Positions 911 through 7,044 of a DNA stretch of 13,966 nucleotides are shown here, in pieces. The DNA is from a bacterium. Lineage in GTDB: Bacteria > Planctomycetota > Phycisphaerae > Phycisphaerales > UBA1924. The translations under genes were made by a program, and so were the position numbers. Location: NCBI GenBank assembly GCA_002401225.1, contig NVSM01000002.1, positions 50,060-64,025 of the forward strand. The letters are read 5' to 3'. Position 1 is the stretch's first letter. Every line of letters starts with the position of its first letter. The notes under the pieces are model-generated. The model saw only the letters and a program-made list of their open reading frames with translations. It made no database searches and had not been told where the DNA came from.

Positions 911-2911
911 ATGGCACTGAACGATTTTATCAACTCAATCAACGGCGTGTTGTTCTCTGATTACACGGTCTACGCATTGCTTATCACAGGCCTTGTTTTC
1001 ACCTTTTGGTCCATGTTTGGACAGTACCGCGCGCTCACGCATGGTGTTCAGGTTGTACGAGGCAAGTATGACGACAAGGACGATCCGGGAGCCATCAATC
1101 ACTTCCAAGCCCTCTCGGCAGCATTGTCTGCGACTGTGGGGCTGGGCAATATCGCTGGTGTTGCTGTCGCGGTCGCACTTGGTGGTCCTGGTGCAATCTT
1201 CTGGATGTGGATCATCGGGATTCTGGGCATGTCGCTCAAGATGACCGAAGTGACACAGTCGATGATGTATAGAAATACTGACGATCCAGATAACCCGCAC
1301 GGCGGCCCGATGTTTGTGGTCAAAAAAGGGCTCGCAGAATCAAAGTCGCTCCGATTGCCAGCAGGCATCGCGTTCGCACTTGTTTCGATCGCACTCGGTT
1401 GGTTGGGTAATGATGTCTTCAGTTCATCCATCCCGCTCTTTGTTGGGATCGCTTTGGCGGTGATGTTTGTCGGACTCGCATTCACGAACATTTCAGGGCA
1501 TGTGATCGGTGGCATCTTTGTCGTCACACTGATTATCTCCGCTATTACCGGCGGCAACATGTTCCAGGCTTGGAATGTCGCGGACATCACCTTTACCTAC
1601 TTCCAGGTGCCTCAGATTGTCACTGGTGTTATTCTCACTGTGCTTGTCGGCATGGTCATTCTTGGTGGTATTAAGCGAATCGGTGCGGTTGCCGGGCGCA
1701 TTGTGCCGTTCATGTGTGCGATCTATATCATCGCGGCACTACTCGTCTTGAGCATGAACATCGGTGAAATCCCGGCGATGCTCGGGCTGATTGTTAAGAG
1801 CGGGTTGCCAGACATGCTCGGCGGTTCAAGCGCAGACGCGTCAGGTGCATTCCTTGGTGGCACATTTGGGTATGCAGCGATGTGGGGCGTCAAGCGTGCT
1901 CTCTTCTCGTCAGAAGCTGGGCAAGGCTCATCGCCAATCGCTCACTCTGCTGCCAAGACAAACGAACCTGTACGCGAAGGCGTCGTTGCGGGTCTTGAGC
2001 CGTTCATCGACACAATCGTTGTATGTACACTGACCGCACTCGTGATCCTTTCGACCGGTGCGTACAACCGTGATGCTGAATCAGAGTTCCTTGATGCGAG
2101 CACGGTCAGTATTGTTGAAGCCGAAGGATCGACAGCAGAGAATCCATCATGGACCTTGGAAACACCGTCATTGCCAATCATGTCGGCGGACGCTCGGCGT
2201 ATTCGCAAGAGTGCCGAGAACACTGCGGGTTGGCGAGATGGCGAGGTCGTCTTCTTTATTGTTGCTGCTGATGAAGATACCAATACCGGGCGAAATCTTC
2301 GCAAGATATCCGGCATTGTCAAACGCGATGATGCTGATGTTTGGAGTGCCAATTGGGACACACTCGATTCGGTTCTTGTGCCAGCGTTCAGGCAAAAGGA
2401 TGATGGCACTACCGATCTCGGTATTTATGGCGACTATGCCGGTGCTTCGATGACTGCTTACGCGTTCGATCGCCAGTTCCCGGGTTTAGGCAAATGGCTT
2501 GTATCGATTGCAGCCTGGCTCTTCGCACTCTCCACCATGATCTCGTGGTCGTACTACGGCGAGCAGGGTATCTATTACTTCGTTGGGAATATGGGTGACA
2601 AGTTCGCCAAGAACGCGGCATTCATTTACAAAATCATCTATGCACTGTTGATTCTGTTTACGACCATGCTCGCGATGCCGATGTTTGGGCCAGATAAGAA
2701 AGCGTTTATCGCGACCGATCATGAACTCGACATGTGGACAACGCTCGGGCTTGGTGTCATGCTTGTTGCCAACATCCCGATCATGTGGATCTTTGCAGCC
2801 AAATCTATGAAGGCGTACCATGAATACTTCAGCCGAATGGGTGGCAGCCATGACACGCCTCACGACGCACCATCGATTGCCGATGTCGTCGAAGGCAAAG
2901 ATGTCGAATAA
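911..2911 (+). CDS. Sodium:alanine/glycine symporter (AGCS family) with a large soluble insert
   Basis: This inner-membrane carrier imports alanine or glycine with sodium, as known for the AGCS (AlsT/DagA-like) family. The family signature is clear: ALSATVGLGNIAGV (71-84), then GGPGAIFWMW (91-100) and GMSLKMTEV (106-114). Later family blocks are KRALFSSEAGQGSSPIAH (328-345), EPFIDTIVVCTLTALVIL (363-380) and STMISWSYYGEQ (541-552). Hydrophobic helices occur throughout. At 666 residues it is well above the usual 450-550. The excess is a polar, charged, beta-looking stretch at about 385-508, between the helix ending in TALVIL and the family block resuming at GASMTAYAF. The ATG at 911 follows GAGGG (902-906) with 4 bases spacing. 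A strong terminator follows the stop, so it is probably monocistronic. D- versus L-alanine or glycine preference cannot be read from the sequence. Confidence 0.93.
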   Translation: MALNDFINSINGVLFSDYTVYALLITGLVFTFWSMFGQYRALTHGVQVVRGKYDDKDDPGAINHFQALSAALSATVGLGNIAGVAVAVALGGPGAIFWMWIIGILGMSLKMTEVTQSMMYRNTDDPDNPHGGPMFVVKKGLAESKSLRLPAGIAFALVSIALGWLGNDVFSSSIPLFVGIALAVMFVGLAFTNISGHVIGGIFVVTLIISAITGGNMFQAWNVADITFTYFQVPQIVTGVILTVLVGMVILGGIKRIGAVAGRIVPFMCAIYIIAALLVLSMNIGEIPAMLGLIVKSGLPDMLGGSSADASGAFLGGTFGYAAMWGVKRALFSSEAGQGSSPIAHSAAKTNEPVREGVVAGLEPFIDTIVVCTLTALVILSTGAYNRDAESEFLDASTVSIVEAEGSTAENPSWTLETPSLPIMSADARRIRKSAENTAGWRDGEVVFFIVAADEDTNTGRNLRKISGIVKRDDADVWSANWDTLDSVLVPAFRQKDDGTTDLGIYGDYAGASMTAYAFDRQFPGLGKWLVSIAAWLFALSTMISWSYYGEQGIYYFVGNMGDKFAKNAAFIYKIIYALLILFTTMLAMPMFGPDKKAFIATDHELDMWTTLGLGVMLVANIPIMWIFAAKSMKAYHEYFSRMGGSHDTPHDAPSIADVVEGKDVE

Positions 2912-2980: not shown

Positions 2981-3409
2981 TACCAGTTGCATCAAGCCGG
3001 CGATCGCAAACGACCAAGTAAACAGCACACCAAAGCAGATCCATCGCCCACGATTCGATAAGTTGTGATCGGTCGTTGGGGTTGGGATATCCATGAGTTC
3101 ATTCATGGCTACAGGATCGAGCCCGCCTCGGAGTTGGGCCTCTTCGACGATGCCGACCATAACGCGGGCGTGCATATCCGAGAAGCCCATGCCAACGGCT
3201 GTTTCGAGCAAGTCGTTATACTGCCCAAGTGATTGGATGCGATTCGAACAGCTGAACACCATCTGTACGCGCGTGGCGAACAACCATCTTGGGTCATCAC
3301 ATGCGATCGAGTCCGAGAACTGATTGTCCTCGGTTTGGGTGTGGTCTGCGTGCAACACAGTGTGTTGCATGTTGACGAGGCGCAACTGATTGGGGACGCT
3401 TGTTGACAT
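2978..3409 (-). CDS. Hypothetical C-terminally membrane-anchored protein
   Basis: From the chosen ATG this is a 143-residue protein: a polar N-terminus, a helical middle containing DPRWLFATRVQ (39-49) and a segment with VGIVEEAQLRGGLD (85-98), then a single hydrophobic helix at about 122-141 ending at the C-terminus. That architecture suggests a cytoplasmic domain held by a C-terminal anchor. The middle resembles, from memory, an unknown family I associate with planctomycetes that contains DPRW and AivQ..ARRG-like motifs; this was not verified. The start is unsettled: the frame is open up to a TTG at 3469, with ATGs at 3430, 3415 and 3409, none with a good ribosome site. I chose 3409 because it starts a natural MSTSVPNQ end. 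It is divergent from the gene at 3498. Function unknown. Confidence 0.65.
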   Translation of the reverse strand: MSTSVPNQLRLVNMQHTVLHADHTQTEDNQFSDSIACDDPRWLFATRVQMVFSCSNRIQSLGQYNDLLETAVGMGFSDMHARVMVGIVEEAQLRGGLDPVAMNELMDIPTPTTDHNLSNRGRWICFGVLFTWSFAIAGLMQLV

Positions 3410-3497
3410 TCTCATTGTATTTGCTTGCATATCTAAGACTGTGCAGATGGTGTGCCGAGTATGGGTCAAGTTGCGTGTCTAATCGGACCGACCTACG

Positions 3498-4031
3498 ATG
3501 AGTGCGGGTTATAACGATCAGATAACTGAGGAGGAGTTACACTTGGATCAAGAGCTACCGACCATCTCAACAAACCTCGACGCTCAAGAAGTCAAAGGTC
3601 GATTGCTCAAGATGTCTAAGCGTGGAAAGCTGCCCGGCTATGACGGCGATTGTGCGAGTGGATTACTGAGTGTGGCTGCGCACGGGGCGCCGTTTGATTC
3701 CAAGCTTATTGTGAATCATCAAGACGGAGAAGTATCGTTCAATTTCGAGCTTATTCCGATGATGCCCCGGATATTCGCAGCCCTCCTGATCATTACGATT
3801 TGGCCGGGTTTACCATTGACCGAGGGGTTCCTTGATTCGTTTACTTGGTATAGTGACTTTGTTGCCAAGACTGGAATCAAAACGATGTACTGGTATCTGC
3901 CGATGACGATTCTTCCCGCGCCGTTTATGTGGAAGAGTTCGCTTCAGAAATCGAAGGCGAGTGCGCACGAATCTGCCATCGAAACAGTTGAGAAAATTGA
4001 CAAGGTATTGAACTCTACCAAATCAGTTTGA
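3498..4031 (+). CDS. Hypothetical membrane protein with two predicted helices
   Basis: From the ATG this is 177 residues: an acidic N-terminus, a conserved-looking block with RLLKMSKRGKLPGYDGD (35-51), a strand-rich part with AHGAPFDSKLIV (61-72), two hydrophobic helices (about 88-107 with TIWPGLPLTEG, and 129-146 with YWYLPMTILP), then a charged tail that may form a short coiled coil (about 150-172). It resembles, from memory, an unknown membrane family I associate with planctomycetes (LPGY..., IWPG..LT, WYLP blocks). The ATG at 3498 has no ribosome site. A TTG at 3543 in the same frame is preceded by GAGGAGGAG (3528-3536) at 6-base spacing and may be the true start, giving 162 residues. The 3' end overlaps the convergent ABC-F gene by 9 bases. 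Function unknown. Confidence 0.72.
   Translation: MSAGYNDQITEEELHLDQELPTISTNLDAQEVKGRLLKMSKRGKLPGYDGDCASGLLSVAAHGAPFDSKLIVNHQDGEVSFNFELIPMMPRIFAALLIITIWPGLPLTEGFLDSFTWYSDFVAKTGIKTMYWYLPMTILPAPFMWKSSLQKSKASAHESAIETVEKIDKVLNSTKSV
3528..3536 (+). promoter_or_regulatory. Strong Shine-Dalgarno site pointing to a TTG start at 3543
   Basis: GAGGAGGAG at 3528-3536 sits 6 bases before an in-frame TTG (3543-3545). In the longer reading it encodes three glutamates (EEE, residues 11-13). It is one of the best ribosome-binding matches in the window, while the upstream ATG at 3498 has none. The protein segment conserved in character begins downstream of the TTG. The match could still be a coincidence of glutamate codons. 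Confidence 0.4.
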
Positions 4032-6005
4032 TTTGGTGACCCATTCGGCTTCGAGTTCTTCGAGTTCAACTTTGAGTGCGTCTCGCTTATCGGTGAGCCC
4101 ATTGGCTCGCTCGTAGTCGGTCCATACATCTGCATCGCCGAGTTCGGCATCGATGCGTTTGAGTTCGATCCCGATTTCGGTCATCCGTTCTTCGATCTTC
4201 CCAATTTGCATCCAAGAATACTTGTTTTTCTGTTCACCTTGGTTTTTTTTTGTGGGCTTTGGAGCCGCTTTCACAACTGCGGGCGTTCGTTGCTTTGCAA
4301 ACTTTGGTTTGTCTCGCACGATTAATTTGGACTGTTTCCATTCGGTATAAGTGCCAGCAAAGATTTCGCATCCGCCATTTCCATCGAGGATCAACATGTG
4401 ATCACAGACCGCGTCAATCAAGGCACGGTCATGTGAGATGAGCATGATCGTGCCCTCGTAGTCGCCTTGGGTGACTTCGCCGGTCTTTGGGTTTTCATAA
4501 GTTCGGGCAATCGCGCCTTCAAGCCGTTCGGCAGCTTGGATATCAAGGTGATTCGTCGGCTCGTCAAGCACCAAGACATTCTTTGCGCTCGCCAATAATG
4601 CTGCAAGAACAGCACGGGCTTGTTCGCCGCCAGACATAACGCCGATCTGTTTTTCTTGGTCTTTGCCAGAGAACATAAACGCGCCAGCTAAGTTGCGGGC
4701 ATCTTGCTCGCTCATCATTACGCGTTCTTCGGTTTCGCGTTTGATGGTGTCTTGGATATGGCGATAGACCGTTTTTTCAGGGTCAAGATCTTCGTGGGTT
4801 TGTGTGAAGTGCCCGACAGCGAGCTTTGAACCGAGTTTGATTGTTCCTGAATCGATGTCTTGTTCGGTTAAGAGGCAGCGGATGAGTGTGGATTTGCCCG
4901 CTCCATTTGGGCCAATGACTCCCCATCGTTGGCCGCGTTCGATATGGAAAGTCAGGTCTTTGAACAGCACCTTTGTTGAGCCGTCGTCGTTTGGGTATGA
5001 CTTGCAGATATCCCTTGCAGCAACAACAATATCGCCGGTTCGTTCGGCCTTGGGCAAGTTGAGTTTCATGTCGTCGAGTTCGATCGGGCGTTCGAGTGCG
5101 CTGAGTTTTTCGCGATCGAGCCGAGACTCGCGTCCCTTTGCTTGCTTGGCACGCTGCCCGGCTTTGAACTGGCGTATGAATGCTTCTTCTTTTTTGAACA
5201 CGGCCTGCTGTTTTTCATAAGCTCGAAGCATCACCGTTCGGCGTTCAACGCGTTGTTTTCTAAACGCGGCGTAGTTGCCCGGATATTCAACAAGCCGACC
5301 ATCTTCGACCTCGACGATTCTCGATACAACCTGGTCGAGCAAGTAGCGATCATGCGAAATCAGGATAACCGCTCCGCGATATTCGTCACGCAGGAAGTTT
5401 TCGAGCCATTCTCGCCCGTCAACATCGAGGTGGTTGGTGGGTTCATCAAGGAGTAGGACCGTAGGGCTTTCAAGGAGAATCTTGGCAAGTGCTACGCGGG
5501 CGCACTGTCCGCCTGAAAGATCTTTGACTTGAATTTGAAACTGTTCATCTGTAAACCCGAGCCCATGCAGGACCTGATCGATCTTGTGATCGTTCGCATA
5601 GCCGCCAGCGGATTCGATCGCTTTGTCAAGCCGCTCTTGTTCTTTGAGTAGTTTGTCGAGTGCATCGCCTTGGGCATCAGCCATATCTTCATAGACCGCT
5701 TCGAGTTCTGTATGGAGTTTGTCCACCATCTCAAACGCTCGCCCGGCAGCCTGATGAAGCGTGTCTTCTGCTTGAAGATCGTGGTTCTGATGCAAATAGC
5801 CAACACGAGCACCTTGTTGAACAACAACTGTCCCGGTGTCTTGTTTAATCATCCCTATCAATATTTTGAGCAGGGTGCTTTTTCCAGAGCCGTTACGGCC
5901 GACCATGCCAATTTTTTCATTGGGTTCAACAGCGATCGACATCCCTTTGAGGATCTCGACTTCGCCGTAGGAAAGGGTTAGATTGGTTCCGGTGAGTACA
6001 GGCAT
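4023..6005 (-). CDS. ABC-F family ATPase (Uup/EttA-type, ribosome-associated)
   Basis: This is a 660-residue soluble protein with two tandem ABC ATPase domains and no membrane helices, which defines ABC-F. Domain 1: Walker A GRNGSGKST (36-44), signature LSGGQ (163-167), Walker B LLLDEPTNHLD (184-194), ISHDR (216-220). A charged helical linker (about 245-320) is the P-site tRNA interaction region in this family. Domain 2: GPNGAGKST (365-373), MSGGE (457-461), VLVLDEPTNHLD (477-488), ISHDR (523-527). After a Lys/Pro-rich spacer a C-terminal coiled-coil arm (about 597-655) resembles that of Uup. Both catalytic glutamates are present. Known family members act on the ribosome during translation. 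There is no Shine-Dalgarno before ATG 6005; a TACACT box 8 bases upstream suggests a leaderless transcript. The 3' end overlaps the neighbouring gene by 9 bases. The paralogue type (Uup, YheS, EttA or other) is not certain. Confidence 0.95.
   Translation of the reverse strand: MPVLTGTNLTLSYGEVEILKGMSIAVEPNEKIGMVGRNGSGKSTLLKILIGMIKQDTGTVVVQQGARVGYLHQNHDLQAEDTLHQAAGRAFEMVDKLHTELEAVYEDMADAQGDALDKLLKEQERLDKAIESAGGYANDHKIDQVLHGLGFTDEQFQIQVKDLSGGQCARVALAKILLESPTVLLLDEPTNHLDVDGREWLENFLRDEYRGAVILISHDRYLLDQVVSRIVEVEDGRLVEYPGNYAAFRKQRVERRTVMLRAYEKQQAVFKKEEAFIRQFKAGQRAKQAKGRESRLDREKLSALERPIELDDMKLNLPKAERTGDIVVAARDICKSYPNDDGSTKVLFKDLTFHIERGQRWGVIGPNGAGKSTLIRCLLTEQDIDSGTIKLGSKLAVGHFTQTHEDLDPEKTVYRHIQDTIKRETEERVMMSEQDARNLAGAFMFSGKDQEKQIGVMSGGEQARAVLAALLASAKNVLVLDEPTNHLDIQAAERLEGAIARTYENPKTGEVTQGDYEGTIMLISHDRALIDAVCDHMLILDGNGGCEIFAGTYTEWKQSKLIVRDKPKFAKQRTPAVVKAAPKPTKKNQGEQKNKYSWMQIGKIEERMTEIGIELKRIDAELGDADVWTDYERANGLTDKRDALKVELEELEAEWVTKSN
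4234..4251 (-). other. A9 tract / A_AAA_AAC slippery heptamer with immediate -1 stop inside the ABC-F gene
   Basis: The coding strand has nine As (T9 on the plus strand at 4243-4251) covering codons 585-588, read ACA AAA AAA AAC. In frame this is the canonical -1 heptamer A_AAA_AAC. After a -1 shift the next codons are CCA AGG TGA, so translation stops at 4234-4236 and yields a protein of about 590 residues lacking the C-terminal coiled coil. Gain of one A by RNA polymerase slippage gives the same product. Whether slippage occurs is not shown by the sequence. Confidence 0.45.
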
Positions 6006-6042: not shown

Positions 6043-7044
6043 TCAGAGTTGGCCGAAGAATCGACGATGATGGTTCAATATTTCATCCACCATTGCTTGG
6101 TCGGGCTGGTCGTCCCAGTCGTACTCATGGAAGCAGCCGCCAAGAATCAAGGCGTCGTTCCGTGGGAACATGTATTTGAACCCATCATGTATCCCATATC
6201 CAAGATCTTGAGGCTTCATATGCACGAGCACGCCCCGCGCAGCATAGACCTGCTTGTCTCTGAAAAGAGCTCGTGATCCGAGTGCCATGCAGTTCACAAG
6301 AACCTGTTCTTTGAGTCCTATAAGCTGTTCCAGATTTGCAAACTTTTGTTGGCAAGTCTGGCCTCCAAGAGCAAGTACATCTTCATGGAGTGCGCTGAGG
6401 AAGCGGTTGTTGTGAATAAACTGTGTCTGGAACACTCGTCCAGGCTTGGCTTGGCAGTGGAATGGGAACGAATCAATCGGGGTAGGGGGATCGATGGTTC
6501 CATTCTCAAAGAGATGGGCTTCGGTGCCGCTTTGCTCTGGTTCGTAGATTGGGAGTTTCTCGATGCCGTACCGTTGTGAATCGAGCGAACGGAACGCGGC
6601 TTGGGACTGTTTCAAAATCTTGTGCATGCGTTGGATTTTGGCCGGGGTATCTCCAAAGTCGATCCCAACAGGAAGCCACAATGCGCCGGCGATGCTGCTG
6701 GTTGTTTCATGGACAGATTTGTCAGCATAGAGCGTGACGCGATAGCCTCGATTGAGGAGTTCGCGGGCGGTGGTGAGTCCGACGACGCCAGCGCCGAGGA
6801 CAGCAACTGAATCTTTTTTTTGGGCTGATTGATCCACAAGGTCCGCAGCCAACTCGGCTGTTCCAAATGAAATGGTTACGCCACACCCGCCGTGTCCGTA
6901 GTTGTGGATAATGGTCTTGGAGTCGAGTCGTTCACTGTCGAGTCGCAATCCACCATGCCGACACGGACGAAGCCCACAAACCGCCCGGAGGAACTGGTCG
7001 TTGCTCAGGTCGGGGGTTGGGTAGATGTGGGTTGAGGTCTTCAT
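6043..7044 (-). CDS. Circularly permuted D-amino-acid oxidase-like FAD oxidoreductase
   Basis: This is a 333-residue flavoprotein of the D-amino-acid oxidase (DAO) family, expected to oxidise D-amino acids to the imino acid using FAD and oxygen. The order is unusual. The normally C-terminal signature comes first: GLRPCRHGGLRL (24-35) and IIHNYGHGGCGVTISFGTA (45-63). The FAD Rossmann motif VAVLGAGVVGLTTA follows (80-93), then TSSIAGALWLP (115-125), VNCMALGSRAL (250-260), ARGVLVHMK (269-277) and the late DAO motif LILGGCFHEYDWD (299-311), after which the protein ends. Nothing like GLRP follows the stop. R26 matches the family's substrate-carboxylate arginine. The ATG at 7044 was chosen because CGGAG (7051-7055) sits 6 bases upstream; an in-frame ATG at 7125 would add 27 unrelated residues. 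It is divergent from panB and lies 37 bases upstream of the ABC-F gene. No export signal was seen. Substrate unknown. Confidence 0.88.
   Translation of the reverse strand: MKTSTHIYPTPDLSNDQFLRAVCGLRPCRHGGLRLDSERLDSKTIIHNYGHGGCGVTISFGTAELAADLVDQSAQKKDSVAVLGAGVVGLTTARELLNRGYRVTLYADKSVHETTSSIAGALWLPVGIDFGDTPAKIQRMHKILKQSQAAFRSLDSQRYGIEKLPIYEPEQSGTEAHLFENGTIDPPTPIDSFPFHCQAKPGRVFQTQFIHNNRFLSALHEDVLALGGQTCQQKFANLEQLIGLKEQVLVNCMALGSRALFRDKQVYAARGVLVHMKPQDLGYGIHDGFKYMFPRNDALILGGCFHEYDWDDQPDQAMVDEILNHHRRFFGQL

Follow-up and report, generated by a model that had tools for sequence, protein, structure and literature searches.

A naturally circularly permuted D-amino-acid oxidase in a Phycisphaerales genome, and an apparently undescribed bacterial family that shares its order

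Ordinary D-amino-acid oxidase (DAO) begins with the Rossmann motif that binds flavin adenine dinucleotide (FAD) and ends with the motifs GLRP and HNYGHGG, and the locus studied here raises the question of whether a natural enzyme can carry these parts in the opposite order and, if so, what such an enzyme does. The gene lies in a stretch of 13,966 nucleotides from a bacterium of the Phycisphaerales lineage UBA1924 (assembly GCA_002401225.1, contig NVSM01000002.1, positions 50,060 to 64,025 of the forward strand), which is called the window below. An original prediction, made from the letters alone, had proposed that its product is a circularly permuted DAO with GLRP and HNYGHGG ahead of GAGVVGL. 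Sequence comparison in our study confirmed the protein as a real, natural circular permutant of DAO. The translation also reproduced the predicted positions of four motifs, and the open reading frame of 333 amino acids (aa) has a real stop with no second GLRP downstream, as had been argued against a simple duplication. The gene and its parts are as follows.

6043..7044, minus strand: gene of the circularly permuted D-amino-acid oxidase (P0001), 333 aa, with an ATG start and a TGA stop at 6043-6045
6832..7044, minus strand: residues 1-71, the counterpart of the C-terminal segment of ordinary DAO (GLRP strand, HNYGHGG loop and last helix), from phmmer and the structure model
6964..6975, minus strand: GLRP, residues 24-27, with R26 on Arg283 of human/pig DAO (6kbp_A alignment)
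6886..6906, minus strand: HNYGHGG, residues 47-53, with G53 on DAO G313 (6kbp_A alignment)
6811..6831, minus strand: linker joining the old C- and N-termini (the seam), residues 72-78, placed by model helix 52-71, model strand 79-83 and motif spacing
6046..6810, minus strand: residues 79-333, with the FAD Rossmann strand and the catalytic part, which come first in ordinary DAO
6775..6795, minus strand: GAGVVGL FAD dinucleotide motif, residues 84-90
6112..6144, minus strand: LGGCFHEYDWD, residues 301-311

Comparison with the PDB by phmmer aligned the known oxidases as two pieces in reversed order, which argues that the swap is not a chance resemblance. Residues 79-333 resemble about the first 271 residues of DAO and residues 11-77 about its last 70. 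Human D-aspartate oxidase (6rkf), relative to which the protein is swapped, was the best PDB match by sequence, with query residues 79-324 on 14-265 of chain A (independent E-value, i-E, 1.8e-15) and query residues 13-73 on 274-337 (i-E 1.8e-4). DAO 6kbp_A was matched by query residues 80-312 on 3-249 and 11-74 on 268-334. The strongest of three printed matches to the N-terminal segment was the Rasamsonia emersonii D-amino-acid oxidase (7ct4_A, query 15-77 on 317-379, i-E 1.5e-9), whose own order is canonical. The matched pieces jointly span the DAO domain once, with none missing and none doubled. A profile of 10 permuted proteins matched 17 distinct DAO or D-aspartate oxidase sequences in the PDB, 16 of them in two separately significant stretches and 1c0i in one; judged by best stretch, none of the 17 was matched in a single full-length run.

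Membership of the DAO family (PF01266) was clear at 111.8 bits against a gathering score of 27.9 (E 7e-32, best stretch residues 80-332). Since the usual arrangement of an N-terminal Rossmann motif and a C-terminal GLRP...HNYGHGG is reversed, the protein is a DAO variant rather than an ordinary member. Each part occurs once, the parts are swapped, the old termini are joined and the new termini lie in a loop, just ahead of GLRP, where the break had been predicted. The protein thus differs from human and pig DAO (EC 1.4.3.3; 6kbp, 1kif, 2du8) by its swapped parts, by new termini before GLRP and by a histidine for the lid residue Tyr224. Canonical DAO of Planctomycetota and Actinomycetota (e.g. 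loci L044 and L096), some of it from the window genome's own order or family, belongs to the same family with the Rossmann motif first and GLRP/HNYGHGG last. Two other PF01266-type flavoenzymes were rejected as identities: glycine oxidase ThiO, the best NCBIfam match (TIGR02352, 59.4 bits against a cut-off of 250.8), and the D-amino acid dehydrogenase DadA (NF001933, 35.6 bits against 383).

The AlphaFold2 model of the protein was of high confidence (predicted local distance difference test, pLDDT, 91; predicted template modelling score, pTM, 0.90) and had the DAO fold, with 6rkf again the top PDB match. It comprises strands at 18-29, 34-40 and 43-49, a helix at 52-71 and a strand at 79-83, so that the short linker once placed at about residues 70-79 falls at 72-78. 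Residues 1-77 modelled alone gave no confident fold (pLDDT 65.8, pTM 0.43). The structural alignments to DAO folds follow chain order, and the placement of residues 1-77 in the fold is suggested by the confidence of the whole model, the homology of both pieces and the unconfident model of this segment by itself.

The source is a draft genome of 77 contigs that is 61 % complete and has one match to the protein, and in such an assembly the pieces of an ordinary DAO gene might have been joined the wrong way round, by chimaeric assembly or by gene prediction. The order is, however, shared by 352 of 359 proteins (the window protein and listed matches), with three probably permuted, four uncalled and none canonical; the three listings hold the best 120 of 1508, 715 and 7894 matches, and canonical relatives may stand further down. 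Among 29 loci of named genome records found with window-clade patterns, motif order showed 24 to be permuted, and an unbroken match over residues 1-333 showed the same for L004; the remainder were two cut fragments (L026, L028), a canonical Actinoplanes locus (L029) and a weak partial match left uncalled (L030). By their titles these records belong to Planctomycetota or to bacteria of the class Phycisphaerae, L003 ('uncultured bacterium') excepted. The same order occurs in complete plasmid records of Bradyrhizobium elkanii, Rhizobium ruizarguesonis, Niveispirillum cyanobacteriorum, Kozakia baliensis and Nonomuraea gerenzanensis. With independent records in agreement, an assembly error, which the original prediction had itself raised as a concern, was rejected and is improbable to the point of being negligible.

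Genome samples were drawn from the window's class, its phylum and Actinomycetota. Of the 397 genomes in the class sample, 156 matched at E 0.001, in most cases by the Rossmann stretch and nothing else. Eleven held the permuted form (G000, G291, G326, G335, G185, G189, G344, G131, G332, G149 and G240, the last with its order read by hand) and 12 further genomes were canonical by motif. G332 holds two permuted copies about 6 kb apart (L131:6031-13354), one with a twin-arginine (RR) signal and one without. The phylum sample (392 genomes) yielded 21 matches at E 1e-8, 9 permuted and 12 canonical by order of pieces, and five of the nine permuted genomes were new and came from beyond the window's class. 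In the Actinomycetota sample, all 33 of 296 genomes that matched at E 1e-12 were canonical by the listed pieces, which indicates that the search distinguishes the canonical from the permuted order; the sole permuted actinomycete found, N. gerenzanensis, came from the plasmid collection. Source names in the third listing add Acetobacter, Gluconacetobacter and Oleisolibacter among the matches listed. A Mesorhizobium onobrychidis plasmid match was added too; this putatively permuted gene (L091:5989-7052) is annotated as two overlapping pieces and may therefore be broken. A phage origin was rejected, as no match was found in 50,697 phage records.

The search for proteins with HNYGHGG before GAGVxGL thus places the permuted form across Planctomycetota, in Alphaproteobacteria and in one actinomycete. 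The suggestion of a widespread subfamily was thereby upheld across phyla; that it is also undescribed holds as far as the listed titles and abstract openings of open-access papers go, where no description of a permuted DAO was found, with subscription journals and InterPro outside that scope. One listed paper, PMC4408115, names circular permutation many times; its subject is an FAD-binding fluorescent protein. This is apparently a large, undescribed bacterial family, in which the swap has been hidden because the sources use ordinary names ('FAD-dependent oxidoreductase', 'D-amino-acid oxidase', 'glycine/D-amino acid oxidase-like deaminating enzyme').

A likely single origin, which goes beyond the original prediction, emerged from trees of 72 permuted representatives, put back into the usual order, and 40 canonical ones. 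One branch separated all permuted from all canonical rows, with a Shimodaira–Hasegawa approximate likelihood ratio test (SH-aLRT) support of 97 in the full re-ordered tree and 99 in a tree of residues 79-312 only, made to exclude any effect of the seam. The window protein fell in a clade of 12 representatives (support 99). Because a single branch sets every permuted row apart, the permuted form probably arose once; from the wider superfamily, the canonical order is presumed to be ancestral. That both forms arose several times, with order a recurrent quirk, seems unlikely. The trees are quick searches with no outgroup, many inner branches are weak and the very long rows, L043 among them, are uncertain, which leaves some room for it; against it stand the single separating branch in both trees and a nearly constant distance from HNYGHGG to the Rossmann motif (medians of 35, 35 and 33 residues in three homologue sets). 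Omitted from the trees were P0115 (segment too short), repeated canonical loci (L077, L078, L081, L083-L085, L093, L094), loci without both motifs by pattern (e.g. L054-L060, L076, L118), window-clade loci L002-L027 and L031-L034 (the clade being represented by listed proteins), and sequences with an identity of at least 58 % (permuted) or 65 % (canonical) to a representative. A plausible route is the one originally proposed, tandem duplication followed by loss of the outer parts, and a duplicated intermediate was not seen among the proteins examined. P0224, a permuted protein of 620 aa that is extended by a long additional part at its C-terminus, was examined as a candidate intermediate and had one Pfam family, DAO (best stretch 153-350), in two matched stretches.

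The 6kbp_A alignment set R26 on Arg283, Y291 on Tyr228, G53 on Gly313 and H286 on Tyr224. In DAO, Arg283 is the arginine that holds the substrate carboxylate, Tyr228 and Gly313 are further substrate-binding residues and Tyr224 is the active-site lid; the binding residues are thus all present in the window protein and the lid tyrosine is not. An alignment of 376 permuted proteins (homologue sets of 121, 119 and 119 proteins, the first being the window set, and 17 loci) had arginine at the R26 position in 375 with one gap, and glycine at the G53 position in all 376. Tyrosine at the Y291 position was found in 111/121, 116/119 and 41/119 proteins of the three sets and in 15/17 loci. By these sequences the carboxylate anchor is nearly universal, and the lid and nearby parts vary.

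Taken together, this evidence suggests that the window protein is a cytosolic, permuted member of the DAO/D-aspartate oxidase family acting as a D-amino-acid oxidase or dehydrogenase, a reading to which we give a probability of roughly 0.85 and in which activity, substrate, acceptor and role are predictions. The chain was at some time reconnected by joining the old C-terminal helix through about seven residues to the first FAD Rossmann strand, with a new start and end opened in the loop directly before the GLRP strand, and fold, FAD site and substrate site are retained. The enzyme would bind FAD and hold the carboxylate of a D-amino acid through R26 (as Arg283) and Y291 (as Tyr228), remove a proton and two electrons from the alpha-carbon to leave an imino acid, whose hydrolysis would yield a 2-oxo acid and ammonia, and have its flavin re-oxidised by O2 or another acceptor. 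The protein has no recognisable export signal, which makes a cytosolic location likely, and the organism would there burn or detoxify D-amino acids.

Two neighbouring genes recur in the window clade, whose synteny was read over 27 loci (the window and L002-L027).

911..2911, plus strand: sodium:alanine symporter gene (PF01235, 9.4e-102), in 18/27 window-clade loci
4023..6005, minus strand: ABC-F-type ATPase gene (PF00005/PF12848), 37 bases downstream of the permuted gene, in 21/27 window-clade loci

Also recurrent were panB (20/27), an HtrA-like protease (17/27) and MurD (16/27); these counts are lower bounds because several loci are cut short, and the recurrence looks like vertical inheritance. 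The symporter in the conserved neighbourhood makes D-alanine a candidate substrate, and a functional link with D-alanine or D-glutamate is offered as a suggestion. The symporter's best Pfam stretch takes 446 residues for 288 profile positions, so that some 150 residues seem to be inserted. Between symporter and ATPase (2981-4028), two small genes of 150 and 177 aa without a Pfam match stand beside these genes in 12 and 15 loci. Outside the clade, on the K. baliensis plasmid (L090:5833-7059), a cytochrome c gene (PF13442, 1.2e-12) comes after a signal-bearing permuted DAO, and ahead of the DAO lie serine hydrolases and a further PF01266 gene that by eye resembles DadA; the set may be a periplasmic cluster for scavenging D-residues. 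On two rhizobial plasmids (L086:4438-8765, L087:4482-8708) the permuted gene has an FAD-binding oxidoreductase on one side and a thiamine-pyrophosphate enzyme on the other, and the latter likewise follows the Mesorhizobium gene. No partner gene was shared among six loci of signal-bearing proteins or near relatives (L090, L125-L128, L131).

Several observations weigh against the assignment as an enzyme of D-amino acids. Y291 is replaced by phenylalanine in 10/121 proteins of the window set, and in the third set its place is taken mainly by Ser, Tyr or Ala; the H286 position is histidine in 120/121 of the window set and variable elsewhere, and much of the third set has lost the LGG glycines. Because all three vary, specificity may differ. 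The link to D-alanine is weakened by the fact that symporter and MurD are not adjacent to the permuted gene. It is possible, at odds well short of even, that the permuted fold acts on another amine, be it a glycine-like, N-methyl or imino compound or a peptide-linked D-residue, or passes electrons as a dehydrogenase to a respiratory carrier instead of O2. The non-tyrosine lid and the non-universal Tyr228 would suit this, as would the gene order in K. baliensis and a planctomycete relative (L128) that adjoins a beta-lactamase-family hydrolase. However, cytochrome c stands beside the permuted gene at that one locus and is absent from the recurring window-clade neighbours, and the carboxylate arginine is retained in nearly every protein aligned. 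A degenerate relic that has kept the fold and lost the enzyme is very improbable: the FAD, arginine and glycine motifs are kept family-wide and the gene lies in conserved synteny. The assignment to D-amino acids is preferred, and the window protein probably breaks them down.

Our study also extends the original prediction to export signals, which appear in many relatives outside the window clade. Calls were made by a simple RR pattern, a hydrophobicity filter or by eye. An RR motif before the GLRP segment was found in 84/119 proteins of the second set and in 0/121 of the window set, the window protein included, which thus lacks the N-terminal RR and hydrophobic stretch of an exported substrate of twin-arginine translocation (Tat). 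With the hydrophobicity filter, 111/119 of the third set and 81/240 of the first two sets together were positive; the shares in the second and third sets are biased upwards because those searches started from mostly signal-bearing proteins. In the less biased phylum sample, 7/9 permuted genomes (L038, L040, L061-L065) had an RR and a hydrophobic stretch by eye, the window genome and G185 being without an RR signal. A lipobox-like cysteine was present by pattern in 32/257 permuted proteins. No export signal was recognised in 52 canonical proteins by pattern and by eye on N-termini, where each of the six hits of the RR pattern was judged by eye to lie ahead of the probable start or to lack a hydrophobic stretch. 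These patterns suggest twin-arginine-type export for much of the permuted branch and not for the window clade or the rhizobial members. A crude exported/not-exported label needs 14 changes on the tree of 72 representatives, with some rows being fragments or called not exported despite a visible RR (P0126, P0189, P0190, L062), and a signal ancestral to the branch is conceivable.

A tentative scenario, which we consider rather doubtful as a whole, is that one ancient permutation founded a separate branch of DAO. Its N-terminus would have moved from the first Rossmann strand to a surface loop, giving room for Tat signals and lipid anchors; the branch would work in the periplasm, stripping D-amino acids from cell-wall or environmental peptides and passing electrons to cytochrome c, and the window's Phycisphaerales clade would be signal-free and cytosolic. 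Enzymes of the wider superfamily with the usual order and signal peptides exist, so that permutation is not strictly needed for export.

In summary, DAO is a textbook flavoenzyme with uses in biosensors, in the making of antibiotics and in neuroscience, and a natural permutant with the same active site indicates that its chain can open before GLRP and close between its ends. For protein engineers, such a permutant offers new fusion ends and insertion sites. Why a permutation was kept is a question that can rarely be tested, and the apparent association of the permuted order with export signals makes it testable here.
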